Source: Thermoproteota archaeon (GTDB taxonomy: Archaea > Thermoproteota > Methanomethylicia > Methanomethylicales > B66-G16). From it: a stretch of 20,236 bases of DNA. Shown here piece after piece: positions 7,697 to 12,663 of the stretch. Below the pieces are notes generated by a model. That model made no database searches and was not told where the DNA came from. It saw only the letters and a program-made list of their open reading frames with translations. Both the position numbers and the translations under genes were made by a program. Numbering within the stretch: the first letter of the stretch is position 1; each line of letters begins with the position of its first letter. Location of the stretch: positions 1 to 20,236 of the forward strand of contig QMQV01000019.1 in the NCBI GenBank assembly GCA_003649085.1, in the 5' to 3' direction.

Positions 7697-8314
7697 CTAA
7701 CTACTTCCTATTGGGCATTGAGTTTCTTCTAAAGCTTCTAAAACTTGAACATCAGCTTCGCTAACGTTGCCTAGCTCCTTAAACACTATAATAGCTGATG
7801 TTAGCTCAGCCAGCGCACAGACATAGAATAGAGCATTTAACCCAAAGTTCCATGCGATAGCGCCTGCTAAGAGAAACGTCGTTGTTGTAGCAATATCATA
7901 TATTGACTCATAAAAACCAAAGTACTTACCTCTGGTCACATTATCAGTTATATCAGCTAAGGCAGCTTTCCAAGCAGGCTTTTGCATAGCTGTGGCAAAG
8001 CCTCCAATAACTTCAATTATGTATAGTAGGTGAAGTGCGTTAACAATGGTATACGAGAGCGTTACAGCAGCATTTAGTATTCCACCGTAGAAGACAAGCT
8101 CTCTCCTACCAATTCTATCAGAAAGCTTACCCATCGGTGTCTCTAAGATAGCTAATACATATCCAAAAACTGCTGAAAGCACTAAAGCATCCATGAACGT
8201 GCCATTTACAACTTCTTCCACATAAATGACGTAGATAGGGCCAAGTACCGCAGTCGCTATTGATCCTAATGCTCCTGCTATAGTTAGCATTGCAAATCTC
8301 CTCGCCACGAACAT
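7697..8314 (-). CDS. Half-size MFS transporter (six membrane segments)
   Basis: 205 residues with about six membrane helices. The loop after helix 2 carries MFS motif A as GKLSDRIGRRE, and PAWKAALADI matches the region after helix 4. The protein matches only the N-terminal half of a typical 380-420-residue MFS permease. It ends in a short acidic tail (EALEETQ), and the following DNA has no room for a second half. It is either a remnant, or a six-helix unit that works as a homodimer. There is no internal stop or frameshift within the half that is present. It lies 36 bases downstream of the PadR-type gene and is probably co-transcribed and controlled by it. Substrate unknown. Confidence 0.7.
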   Translation of the reverse strand: MFVARRFAMLTIAGALGSIATAVLGPIYVIYVEEVVNGTFMDALVLSAVFGYVLAILETPMGKLSDRIGRRELVFYGGILNAAVTLSYTIVNALHLLYIIEVIGGFATAMQKPAWKAALADITDNVTRGKYFGFYESIYDIATTTTFLLAGAIAWNFGLNALFYVCALAELTSAIIVFKELGNVSEADVQVLEALEETQCPIGSS

Positions 8315-9279: not shown

Positions 9280-9918
9280 TTAAGCGAAAACATCAGTCTC
9301 CATAACTCCAGCGTCAGTTATCAAAGCCTTTACTCTCAACTTGAGCGGGGGTTTAATAATCGAAATCTCTTTAAAACCATCACTTAAATTCCTAGTTTCA
9401 AGTACTACGTTAAAATGAGGTATTATTGATTTCCTACACACAGGCATATTATCTAAAGCTACGCCACTAATACCTACTAACTTTACGTCTAACATATTTA
9501 GAGCAGTCTTAAGGCGTGCCAGCCCTAAGTTTAGCAACCTGTTTTTGGCAACATTTTCCTGAAAAACTTGTGATGTTATTAGCTGATATAACCTTGAAAC
9601 CGTATCGACTATAACTAACCTGGCTTCAATACTCTCTACAAGTAAATCTACTTCGTTTACAAATGTCATGAAGTCTTTAAAGCTGTTAAGTTTTAAGATA
9701 AAGAAGTTATTAACTAAGGCTTCTATACCTAGCAAATCCTGTGCTCGTTCTAAAGGCTCATCTTTATCAGTTACGTAGAGGACATTAGCATGGTTTTTAA
9801 CTACATCTTTAGCTATTTGCAGTGCCAATGTAGTTTTTCCTGATCCTGCTTCTCCATAAATTAATAGGGATTTTGCAGGCTGCAAAAGCTTATCTAATGC
9901 TCTAATACCTGTCTTCAC
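9280..9918 (-). CDS. RadB-like Rad51/RadA paralogue
   Basis: 212 residues made of a single RecA-fold ATPase core. Walker A is GEAGSGKT at 22-29. Walker B is LVIVD at 101-105, followed by TVSRLY. The helix-hairpin-helix domain of RadA is absent, as in RadB and other archaeal RadA paralogues, which are usually 210-260 residues. Such paralogues are thought to help or regulate RadA filaments rather than exchange strands alone. The C-terminal third is much diverged from RadA, so the subgroup (RadB, aRadC or other) is open. GTG 9918 follows AGGAGG by 7 bases, and the gene overlaps the SWIM gene by 17 bases. It is the last gene of the radA operon. Confidence 0.75.
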   Translation of the reverse strand: MKTGIRALDKLLQPAKSLLIYGEAGSGKTTLALQIAKDVVKNHANVLYVTDKDEPLERAQDLLGIEALVNNFFILKLNSFKDFMTFVNEVDLLVESIEARLVIVDTVSRLYQLITSQVFQENVAKNRLLNLGLARLKTALNMLDVKLVGISGVALDNMPVCRKSIIPHFNVVLETRNLSDGFKEISIIKPPLKLRVKALITDAGVMETDVFA

Positions 9919-10186
9919 CTTTCATCCTCCTATACGCTATTACTGCTCCTATGTGACTACATCCTTCTCTAGCTCTTCTAAGAGAAAATGGCTTTGACGG
10001 ATCTTGACAACTGCATACGTATCTTTTCAGTCCTTTGAGGTCAACTAGCTTTACAATGTAGTATCCGTCTCTATCGCCTAGCTCGCTTCTCCCCCTAACT
10101 TTCCACACCTTTCCGGGAACAATTTCCTCCACGTCATTTACTCGCGCTAAGCTACGCTTAGGCAAACTACGGCTTCTGCTCCGCAT
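9902..10186 (-). CDS. Small SWIM zinc-finger protein in the radA operon
   Basis: 94 residues. The SWIM signature CxCxnCxH is complete: C58 and C60 (VCSCQDP), C76 and H78 (GCSHIGAVIAY). A strand (GYYIVKLVDLKGLKRY) precedes it, as expected for the fold. The first 16 residues are strongly basic with an RSRSRS run. SWIM domains bind one zinc. In eukaryotes the SWIM proteins Sws1 (human) and Shu2 (budding yeast) pair with Rad51 paralogues to assist Rad51. Here the gene overlaps radA by 20 bases and a Rad51-paralogue gene by 17, so a similar role is a reasonable inference. ATG 10186 is supported by GAGGGT at 10194-10199, 7 bases upstream. Confidence 0.8.
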   Translation of the reverse strand: MRSRSRSLPKRSLARVNDVEEIVPGKVWKVRGRSELGDRDGYYIVKLVDLKGLKRYVCSCQDPSKPFSLRRAREGCSHIGAVIAYRRMKGEDRY

Positions 10187-11111
10187 CTACAATACCCTCG
10201 TCTTTAACGGCAAAGTACGTAGATGCCCTTGGATGTTTAGGAGAGTCTATTATCGTAGCTTTAGTCAAGCCCTTTGACTTTTCGAGTAAAATCCTGTACG
10301 TACAGCCATGAGCTACTATGTTGCCTCCAGCCGGCTTGTAATTAGCTGTTCCTGGGACGTATTCGGGCACGTCAAGTATCTGATTAGTAACTACAACTAC
10401 AATATCATATAGCATGAAGAGTCTTTGTAGCTGATGTATATGCCTGTTAAGCTTCTGTTGTCTAGCTACCAGTGCTTCCCTGCCAACATACTCACTTCTA
10501 AAGTGAGCAGTCAGCGAGTCCACAACAACTAGCTTGACGTTATTGTACTTCACGTAGTTAAATGCCTCCTCAACAAGGTCCATTTGGTGATCCGTGTTTA
10601 ACGCTTTGGCATGGTATATGTTCTCTAAGACCTCTTCTCCCATACCAAATCTTCGAGCAATTTCGACAATTCTAGTACTACTGAAAGTGTCTTCAGTATC
10701 TATGAAGAAAGCCCCGCCTCCTAAACCGCCCTTCTCTTTAGGTAATTGCACCGTGACGCATAGCTGGAAACATAGCTGCGTTTTTCCAGTTCCGTAAGCC
10801 CCTACAAGCTCCGTAATTCCCTTTTCAAGACCGCCTTTTAAAATTGCGTCAAGCCCAGAACATCCTGTCGTCAGCTTAGCTGCATTGCCTCTTAAATACA
10901 CCTTTGCTGGCACAATACCTACGCCGAGCTTTTCGCGCGCTGCTCGCGTTATAGCAAAAGCTCTTTCCTCTGATATTCCTTCAACTCTCTGTAGAAGCTC
11001 TCTTGTCGACAAAGCAGCTAAGTCTCTAAGACACGTAATGCCTCCTCTCCTAAGCTTTTCAGCGGTCACTGCACCTACACCATCTAAACTTTCAAGCTCA
11101 TCCTTCACCAC
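10167..11111 (-). CDS. radA: DNA repair and recombination protein RadA
   Basis: About 314 residues. Domain order is N-terminal helix-hairpin-helix DNA-binding (LESLDGVGAVTAEKLRRGG, GISEERAFAITRAA), a short linker, then the RecA-fold core. In 317-residue numbering, Walker A is GAYGTGKT at 107-114, FFIDTEDTF is at 138-146, Walker B is KLVVVD at 196-201, and VVVTNQIL (L2 start) is near 242-249. RadA forms ATP-dependent filaments on single-stranded DNA and catalyses strand exchange. The linker motif, normally FxxA, is IVPA here (69-72). The frame is open to GTG 11120, but that codon sits inside the SD GGAGGTGA (11117-11124), so GTG 11111, or 11108, is the likely start. It overlaps the HerA-like gene upstream and the SWIM gene downstream. 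Confidence 0.93.
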   Translation of the reverse strand: MVKDELESLDGVGAVTAEKLRRGGITCLRDLAALSTRELLQRVEGISEERAFAITRAAREKLGVGIVPAKVYLRGNAAKLTTGCSGLDAILKGGLEKGITELVGAYGTGKTQLCFQLCVTVQLPKEKGGLGGGAFFIDTEDTFSSTRIVEIARRFGMGEEVLENIYHAKALNTDHQMDLVEEAFNYVKYNNVKLVVVDSLTAHFRSEYVGREALVARQQKLNRHIHQLQRLFMLYDIVVVVTNQILDVPEYVPGTANYKPAGGNIVAHGCTYRILLEKSKGLTKATIIDSPKHPRASTYFAVKDEGIVDAEQKP

Positions 11112-12663
11112 TTTTCTCACCTCCTTCCACCTCCTTACTCAGTGAGCTTGATTTCCTCACATTATCTTCAAATTCCGTCAGAACGTCTTCACCAAAACTA
11201 GTTATAGCATACCATCTCACTCCATCACGATCATAATAATCGGTTATTAGCTTATGCCTAAGAAAGACCTTAATGAGCTGTCTAAACTCCTGTTCAGTTA
11301 AGAAAGGTATAGCTCGATAGCTTCCGTGAGGAATCCTATTGCTCTTAATGAAGTCTAACAACTTGTAAGCTTTAGCGACATCTTTAAGATCTTTAAATAA
11401 CCTTTCAAGCAGACTCCTCCTATAGGTTACAACCTTAAGCTTCTCTCTTGAAAAACCAAGCTTCTCCATATGTGCTACGATCTCTCCGTCACTTACTTCA
11501 GTAGGCGGTCGGCCTTCAAGCTCAATTAACATAGGCATGTGCTCAATAGGCTTGGATATCAAGTAGCGATGTGTGCCCAATGATATGTAAGTCTTAAGTT
11601 GCTCTGAGCTTAGAGAAAACATCCTAGCAATTAAGGAAACATCGTTTTCGCTTAACCCTCTGCAGAAAACCTTTGTCTTAGATCTAGACAACGCCTCTCT
11701 GCTAATTTCAGAAGGGCTTGAACAGCTAAGCACGACTCCTAAGTTTTTCGATGAGAAGGCATCAAATAAGTGCAAGATCACCGGTATGCGTTCATATACG
11801 AGTACGAGATCTTGTCTCATAGCCCTTTGAATGCTAGGCAATAAATATTGCGCATCCTCTAAGACAAGTAAGCTACCTAGGGGGTTTCCAAAAGCTAGCT
11901 TAACGGTTAAAACGGCCTGAGCCAGCGTTCTCAATCTAACGCTATAAACCCTCTTCAAATCCAATATGACAGGAGGCTTGATAATGTCGTTAAGGGAGAT
12001 TGTTGATTCCGCATTAAACGCTAATCCAGCAAATCCCACTTGAAGACTTTCTAAAACCATTTTCAAACTCTCAAGCTTGAAAACCTCTCTCGCCGAAACC
12101 TCGGCTTCGACAGCTAGCAGAGAGTCTAAAAGATCTTCAGCTGTGGGCTTTTCAATACCTTCTTCATAAACTCTTTTCAAGGCTTTAAGCAAATATCGCG
12201 CCTGTACATCATCAAGGTTTAGCACAGACTTTAAAACTTCAACTAATATCAAGGCATAGTCTTCTTTAACGCCAATAGGCTGAAAGATATTTAATGAGAA
12301 GTCTTCACCGAGCTTAAATACCTTCAACTCAGGGATTTCCCTAATTAAACCCACATATGCACCGTAAGTGTCTAACACAATGAACTTCTCGTTAGCTTCA
12401 TGAATAACCTTCAACAAGTTGTAAACAAAGAAGCTTCTAGCTTCATAATCTCCACATACACAAAGCAACTTCAAATCACTTTTTGAAAGACATACCTTAG
12501 CGATCCTCTCATCGCAAGCTGAAAGCGCATAGCCTATGAAAAAGTCCCCACTCTCAAGTTTAGGCATGTTAAAGTTAGCTTTAACAGCTTTCTGAGCTTC
12601 AACGCTAAGGGATGCTTTCAACAACGCTTTGATGATATCACTGCTTACGAAGTTGGCTTTCAA
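11098..12663 (-). CDS. HerA/VirB4-like P-loop ATPase with degenerate Walker A and C-terminal winged helix
   Basis: 521 residues from TTG 12663, with SD GGAGGT at 12673-12678. The pattern follows HerA/FtsK-superfamily translocases: IGYAL and KVCLS before the P-loop strand, FIVLDTYGAY at 94-103, VILDLKRVY at 232-240, a Walker B-like LLVLEDAQYLLP at 265-276, and GVVLSCSSPSEIS. The P-loop itself is gone: at 71-78 the sequence is GDYEARSF, lacking GKS/T. The Walker B acid order is ED rather than DE. It probably binds ATP poorly or not at all, and may act as a structural partner. Residues about 430-500 look like a winged helix. Both neighbours overlap: TTGA with the membrane gene, and about 14 bases with radA. 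Family level is fairly sure; function is not. Confidence 0.65.
   Translation of the reverse strand: MKANFVSSDIIKALLKASLSVEAQKAVKANFNMPKLESGDFFIGYALSACDERIAKVCLSKSDLKLLCVCGDYEARSFFVYNLLKVIHEANEKFIVLDTYGAYVGLIREIPELKVFKLGEDFSLNIFQPIGVKEDYALILVEVLKSVLNLDDVQARYLLKALKRVYEEGIEKPTAEDLLDSLLAVEAEVSAREVFKLESLKMVLESLQVGFAGLAFNAESTISLNDIIKPPVILDLKRVYSVRLRTLAQAVLTVKLAFGNPLGSLLVLEDAQYLLPSIQRAMRQDLVLVYERIPVILHLFDAFSSKNLGVVLSCSSPSEISREALSRSKTKVFCRGLSENDVSLIARMFSLSSEQLKTYISLGTHRYLISKPIEHMPMLIELEGRPPTEVSDGEIVAHMEKLGFSREKLKVVTYRRSLLERLFKDLKDVAKAYKLLDFIKSNRIPHGSYRAIPFLTEQEFRQLIKVFLRHKLITDYYDRDGVRWYAITSFGEDVLTEFEDNVRKSSSLSKEVEGGEKSGEG

Follow-up and report, generated by a model that had tools for sequence, protein, structure and literature searches.

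A conserved archaeal operon of overlapping genes pairs a SWIM protein with Rad51 paralogues beside a degenerate HerA-like protein

Five overlapping genes at one locus

In the window (a stretch of 20,236 nucleotides of DNA from a Thermoproteota archaeon), we found that five genes on one strand overlap one another and encode a membrane-helix protein (HYP), a HerA-like protein, a RadA paralogue that we name RadA2, a SWIM protein and a RecA-fold ATPase (Table 1). That this is a conserved operon pairing a SWIM protein with Rad51 paralogues is well supported by the comparisons below. In the order just given, successive genes overlap by 4, 23, 20 and 17 bases, and GGAGG stretches lie no more than 25 bases before the starts of the HerA-like, RadA2 and ATPase genes. 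The first-pass annotation had described RadA, the SWIM protein and the RecA-fold ATPase as a trio overlapping by 20 and 17 bases, and these three genes and their coordinates are correct. As an account of the whole unit, however, the trio is too short: its overlaps are real, but the operon is longer, and the HerA/CedD-type and membrane-helix genes upstream had been overlooked.

Table 1. Positions of the five genes and their motifs in the window.
Feature	Positions	Strand	Remarks and basis
Membrane-helix protein (HYP), 258 aa	12660..13436	-	Hydrophobic N-terminal long helix, then alpha/beta domain (approximately 117-257)
HerA/VirB4/CedD-type (HerA-like) protein, 521 aa, degenerate Walker A	11098..12663	-	Profile A6 matches and hhalign
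Degenerate P-loop GDYEARS, HerA-like protein	12433..12453	-	Aligned P-loop
RadA paralogue (RadA2), 317 aa, N-terminal HHH domain and Rad51 core	10167..11120	-	Family matches and tree
Intact Walker A GAYGTGKT, RadA2	10779..10802	-	
FxxA polymerisation motif site, RadA2 (reads IVPA)	10905..10916	-	Column alignment
SWIM protein, 94 aa	9902..10186	-	
SWIM motif CxC-x15-CxHxxA	9944..10015	-	
RecA-fold (RadB/KaiC-like) ATPase, 212 aa, intact Walker A	9280..9918	-	TIGR02237 and hhalign
Walker A GEAGSGKT, RecA-fold ATPase	9832..9855	-	

Gene order is kept across genomes

We searched 40 genomes of the class of genome G116, including G001 (a Candidatus Methanomethylicia MAG), with a four-row SWIM profile (matches at E ≤ 1e-17). 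The SWIM protein is found in 12/40 genomes, in every case with an ORF that overlaps a RadA ORF at its 3' end; because each ORF was taken to begin at its first start codon, the overlap lengths are maxima. Three further overlapping RadA-SWIM pairs lie outside the class (G383, G343 and G359), so that the arrangement, whose occurrence beyond this genome was the test named beforehand, was recovered both inside and outside the class. Weak SWIM matches (L088 and L089, E 0.06-0.07) and a distant bacterial match (L002) are excluded from these counts. The HerA-like profile matches 29/40 class genomes, or 28 once G182 is left out because its sole match is its CedD-like ORF. RadA adjoins the HerA-like gene in all 27 of these 28 genomes whose loci were read (all but G235), and SWIM is absent from 16/28.

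When the 398 genomes of the phylum were searched, the HerA-like profile reached at least 160 bits outside the class in G231, G213, G343, G383, G371, G284 and G201; the neighbourhoods of all but G371 were covered, that of G201 being placed beside a RadA from coordinates alone. In G383 and G343, the order HerA-like, small protein, RadA, SWIM is kept, as it is in G359, which was added on its neighbourhood and has a weakly scoring HerA-like ORF. The small protein, of approximately 110 residues, sits between the HerA-like and RadA genes at many loci, whether or not SWIM is present, and is not found in the window. It is highly improbable that these are housekeeping genes that share a transcript but no complex, since order and overlaps are kept across genomes whose cluster RadAs are distant in the tree, and SWIM/Rad51-family neighbourhoods occur elsewhere too. 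An 800-aa neighbour of the clusters was not taken as part of the unit; in the single case tested (L038), it is a PEP synthase.

The full trio is conserved only in part. A recognisable RecA-like third gene follows SWIM in the window, in G116 and in G223, G110 and G077, but the third-position genes in the other compared sets have no RecA-fold similarity by profile. The window ATPase and its G116 relative align to the RadA family at 97.8% (hhalign), and the third genes of G223, G110 and G077 are also RecA-fold (96.3%). We dropped the idea that the third gene is a uniform RadB family, as profiles join only the window/G116 pair and G223/G110/G077. Its product in the window resembles RadB/aRadC paralogues in being a short RecA-fold ATPase that lacks the HHH domain, but it scores 49.8 bits on TIGR02237 (RadB), under the cut-off of 172.4.

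RadA2 is a paralogue with an altered polymerisation interface

Genome G001 carries two full RadAs, and at least 18 other class genomes with the cluster also have an additional full RadA. A housekeeping RadA would be expected in the window genome as well. We collected RadA sequences from loci around SWIM matches and from those scoring best against the window RadA, omitting two short RadA paralogues (L068 and L069) from both tree and motif counts and the RadAs of L140-L142 from the tree. In the resulting unrooted tree of 61 RadAs, one branch with 98/95 support divides 32 cluster RadAs (those of the unit) from 29 lone RadAs, and 0 of 500 label shuffles gave a split as low. The phenylalanine of the FxxA motif is present in 29/29 lone RadAs and in 0/32 cluster RadAs, where the residue is V (20), I (6), L (3) or A (3). 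Alanine at window position 171, which we take to be the residue lining the RAD51 pocket that receives the FxxA phenylalanine, is present in 29/29 lone RadAs and has gone from 29/32 cluster RadAs, with the window copy among the 3 that keep it. Two L2 positions that are each phenylalanine in 28/29 lone RadAs are phenylalanine in only 4/32 and 3/32 cluster RadAs.

RadA2 otherwise resembles archaeal RadA in its HHH domain, Rad51 core and Walker motifs, and it retains Walker A, the acidic D-x-E motif and the L1 residues. On TIGR02236 it scores 324.2 bits, below the cut-off of 361.15, and on NF003301 it scores 346.7, above the cut-off of 259. Since Walker A, D-x-E and L1 are kept while FxxA and its pocket are changed, RadA2 probably binds ATP and DNA, yet is probably unable to polymerise in the manner of RadA. 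The retained motifs, together with the HHH domain and pocket alanine of the window copy, would also suit a specialised true recombinase, in a division of labour like that of Dmc1, with the SWIM protein and ATPase as its private accessory factors; this is quite unlikely given the loss of the FxxA phenylalanine from every cluster RadA and of the pocket alanine and L2 aromatics from most. The tree and the FxxA column rule out that 'radA' here is the housekeeping gene. Because the unit's RadA is a distinct paralogue with an altered polymerisation interface, what the unit brings together is several paralogues and not a recombinase with its mediator.

The HerA-like protein has lost its Walker A motif

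Profile A6, built on the HerA-like protein, matches PDB 8j4u (NTP hydrolase, 1.3e-11), 8xau (HerA, 8.4e-7) and 4ag5 (VirB4, 5.5e-6). Among the DNA-translocation ATPases CedD, VirB4 and TedB, the protein is close to CedD-like proteins (hhalign 99.6%), although it scores 27.3 bits on the CedD model NF053655, far under the cut-off of 600. Its P-loop reads GDYEARS instead of GxTGxGKS, and no GK[ST] occurs in the aligned region. Walker A is lost in all 19 cluster HerA-like proteins with this region aligned and intact in 7/7 CedD-like proteins; judged by these residues, the HerA-like protein is probably catalytically dead.

In excerpts of PMC11868833, CedD is described as a TM segment, a VirB4-like NTD and a HerA-like ATPase. 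By analogy, HYP and the HerA-like protein could mirror this layout as two genes, whereas CedD is a single protein. The profile match of HYP to the CedD NTD is not significant, and a Foldseek search of the HYP model against the PDB gave nothing at E ≤ 0.001. HerA also belongs to archaeal end resection (excerpts of PMC9905601), and the unit resembles the HerA-NurA-Mre11-Rad50 repair operon in placing a HerA-family protein within a recombination operon; in contrast to that operon, its HerA-like protein lacks Walker A, and none of its five proteins matches the NurA, Mre11 or Rad50 families. Membership of a defence system was also considered and rejected, as the PADLOC matches of the five window proteins were all of a generic ATPase/HerA kind.

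Association with CedD-like and pilin genes

A CedD-family match of at least 170 bits is found in 17/40 class genomes, none of which attains the family cut-off of 600. The cluster HerA-like gene is present in 16/17 genomes with such a strong CedD-like protein and in 12/23 others, and in the 17 genomes the cluster HerA-like profile matches the CedD-like protein next (in G182, that protein alone). Counted as both, CedD only, cluster only and neither, the co-occurrence is 16/1/12/11 at 170 bits or more (Fisher p 0.005, kinship uncorrected) and 26/3/2/9 at 60 bits or more (p 4e-5, kinship uncorrected). We do not rely on these p values because kinship is uncorrected, the thresholds were set after the matches had been seen, and the lower threshold admits a possible repair HerA. 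In the seven CedD-like loci that we read, a secretion-ATPase-like gene and genes for one or two TM proteins lie upstream of the CedD-like gene, joined in four of the seven by that for a pilin-like protein of 71-79 aa (assignments from sequence reading, not family matches). The co-occurrence and these loci are consistent with DNA exchange.

In G019, the gene order is Rad51-family, HerA-like, SWIM, 153-aa pilin, 7-TM protein and a large 6-TM ORF. The pilin is identical at 111/112 positions to PDB 8dft, which is named merely 'Pilin protein' there and comes, we presume, from Pyrobaculum calidifontis. Read with excerpts of PMC9905601, the G019 pilin is taken as TedC of the P. calidifontis DNA-import system; those excerpts describe ted loci as containing HerA-like, ParA-like and 'rad50' genes, and the words 'SWIM' and 'RadA' occur nowhere in the main text of that paper. 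A stretch in G043 resembles that of G019 and has no Rad51-family gene in the part read.

These data bear on a different reading, in which the unit, as a Shu-like mediator, serves everyday repair of the chromosome or the rescue of replication forks, with the HerA-like protein as a scaffold for repair and no part played by DNA import. The pairing of a SWIM protein with Rad51 paralogues is a repair arrangement in eukaryotes (excerpts of PMC6316741), HerA has its part in end resection, and a strong CedD-like protein is missing from 12 cluster genomes of the class. Against this, the cluster HerA-like profile finds the CedD-like protein next in the 17 class genomes with a strong one, the HerA-like gene of the compared loci is preceded by a gene whose product has a predicted TM helix, and one related SWIM/Rad51-family pair adjoins the TedC-type pilin gene, and we consider the repair reading rather unlikely. 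Membrane coupling and a role of the unit in DNA exchange are put forward tentatively, with a somewhat less than even chance of being right.

Likeness to the Shu complex and proposed function

The yeast Shu complex consists of Csm2-Psy3-Shu1-Shu2, and the yeast subunits have degenerate ATPase motifs. The archaeal unit resembles the Shu complex (in yeast, and in humans SWS1-SWSAP1) in combining a SWIM protein carrying CxC...CxHxxA with Rad51 paralogues, a combination known here from genomic adjacency alone; such SWIM proteins partner Rad51 paralogues in eukaryotes according to excerpts of PMC6316741. It differs in also encoding HerA/CedD-like and membrane-helix proteins and in that RadA2 is a full-length RadA with an HHH domain. 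The window SWIM protein has the CxC...Xn...CxHxxA motif, with ligands invariant in 15/15 aligned rows and a last residue of A in 10 and S in 5. Its likeness to Shu2/SWS1 is one of motif: the SWIM profile found nothing in PDB sequences at E ≤ 1, and Foldseek of the SWIM model against the PDB found none at E ≤ 0.001. On Pfam PF04434 (SWIM), the window protein has no match at E ≤ 10, and 3/15 rows match (best E 0.058). By analogy, a Shu-like mediator complex would be the most economical function, and we favour it slightly.

We propose that the five overlapping genes would act as one functional unit, in which RadA2, SWIM and the RecA-fold ATPase make up a Rad51-paralogue/SWIM module alongside a membrane-anchored protein and a catalytically dead protein of HerA/CedD type. 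RadA2, lacking the phenylalanine for monomer polymerisation, would form no ordinary filaments on its own. RadA2 would instead be added to, or cap, the filament built by the housekeeping RadA and, using the SWIM protein as an adaptor, nucleate or stabilise that filament on single-stranded DNA, a principle shared with the eukaryotic Shu/SWS1-SWSAP1 and Rad51-paralogue complexes. Tethering of the module close to a membrane would fall to the HerA-like and membrane proteins, most likely where DNA of a partner cell enters via a CedD/Ted-type exchange system. Here we infer complex formation, with SWIM as the bridge between RadA2 and the ATPase, the effect on RadA, the tethering to the membrane and the connection with DNA exchange; for the explanation as a whole, we judge the chances to be evenly balanced. 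A bolder version, which we regard as doubtful, is that a dedicated archaeal machine takes up incoming DNA at the membrane and delivers it to the recombinase, with a RadA2-SWIM-ATPase loader anchored by a split and dead CedD/VirB4-like protein, and that the SWIM-Rad51-paralogue pairing was invented long ago in archaea, in association with DNA exchange, and inherited or reinvented by eukaryotic Shu complexes. An operon that joins a SWIM protein to RadA-derived paralogues whose polymerisation motifs are gone would carry the logic of Shu and Rad51 paralogues beyond eukaryotes and allow its origin to be tested in small thermostable proteins, and the CedD/Ted link would offer a candidate for an unexplained step of archaeal DNA exchange, in which imported single strands reach the recombinase. 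Our searches of the open-licence PMC literature returned no description of this unit.

Distribution of related SWIM genes

A protein search of 5.8 billion sequences returned no more than three SWIM proteins, at 63-99% identity and including the window's own cluster, and the SWIM profile matches 73 of the 398 phylum genomes. We surveyed 51 loci in 37 of these 73 genomes, mostly the best-scoring genomes. The nearest Rad51-family gene overlaps SWIM or lies within 50 bases of it at 17 of the 51 loci, within 1.5 kb at 27 and within 4 kb at 34, and at 31/51 loci a Rad51-family gene on the same strand lies within 4 kb. At 17/51 loci, some with short flanks, no Rad51-family gene was seen in the stretch read.

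Some genomes have several related SWIM genes (6 in G011, 4 in G172, 4 in G130, 11 in G184 and 9 in G154), and five of the G011 copies are located behind VirB4/HerA-type ATPase genes. Such copies would fit a unit that arose in mobile elements, whether integrated conjugative ones or others, or that belongs to them still, and that serves their transfer or maintenance. This origin is very unlikely for the unit described here, as 11/12 SWIM-bearing class genomes have a single SWIM match (the second in G158 is weak), gene order is conserved and the PADLOC matches are generic. In genomes that we label Thermoproteales-like, a multi-copy operon encodes a VirB4/HerA-type ATPase, two unknowns, a second HerA/TrwB-like ATPase, SWIM and an unknown, with a Rad51-family protein last in most copies.

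SWIM genes in other operons and neighbourhoods

SWIM genes also lie outside the cluster, in several arrangements (table). At locus L144, we found that the gene for a 265-residue protein overlaps another SWIM gene by about 7 bases. In genome G011, five of the six SWIM copies lie within the multi-copy operon type found at L165, and SWIM profile matches are more numerous still in G184 (11) and G154 (9).

At L172, a Rad51-family gene and a SWIM gene adjoin a TedC-type pilin gene. A paper on archaeal DNA import names 'rad50' among the genes of ted-type loci (PMC9905601); given the Rad51-family gene at L172, this label is possibly worth comparing with Rad51-family genes. In four of the seven loci L190-L196, a pilin-like gene is also near the CedD-like gene, and we regard all seven as candidate pilus plus DNA-import loci.

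Features in the window and the loci compared (positions local to each locus)
Locus	Positions	Feature
L144	5194-6332	265-residue protein, weak RadA similarity (36 bits)
L172	3227-7419	Rad51-family and SWIM genes directly preceding TedC-type pilin gene
L190-L196		CedD-like gene adjoining secretion-ATPase-like and TM genes
L165	649-7264	Multi-copy operon: VirB4/HerA-type ATPase, HerA/TrwB-like ATPase, SWIM, Rad51-family protein
L147, L161, L163, L164, L166		Same operon type as L165
L037	876-1493	Divergent ArsR-type HTH gene upstream of cluster
L038	3076-3708	Same
L046	9444-10088	Same
L093	9717-10343	Same
L094	9721-10413	Same
Window	7697-8314	MFS-like protein, only 205 residues, matching family's first half

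Cluster neighbours, split genes and a possibly truncated gene

The C-terminal part of the L037 ArsR-type protein is hydrophobic. At L099, the tested neighbour of the cluster is a uracil-DNA glycosylase; the window contains neither an ArsR-type HTH gene nor a uracil-DNA glycosylase. Two ORFs replace the single HerA-like gene at L092, L041 and L051 (G110, G098 and G188, respectively), splits that may reflect draft-assembly frameshifts or decay. The MFS-like protein of the window is possibly truncated.
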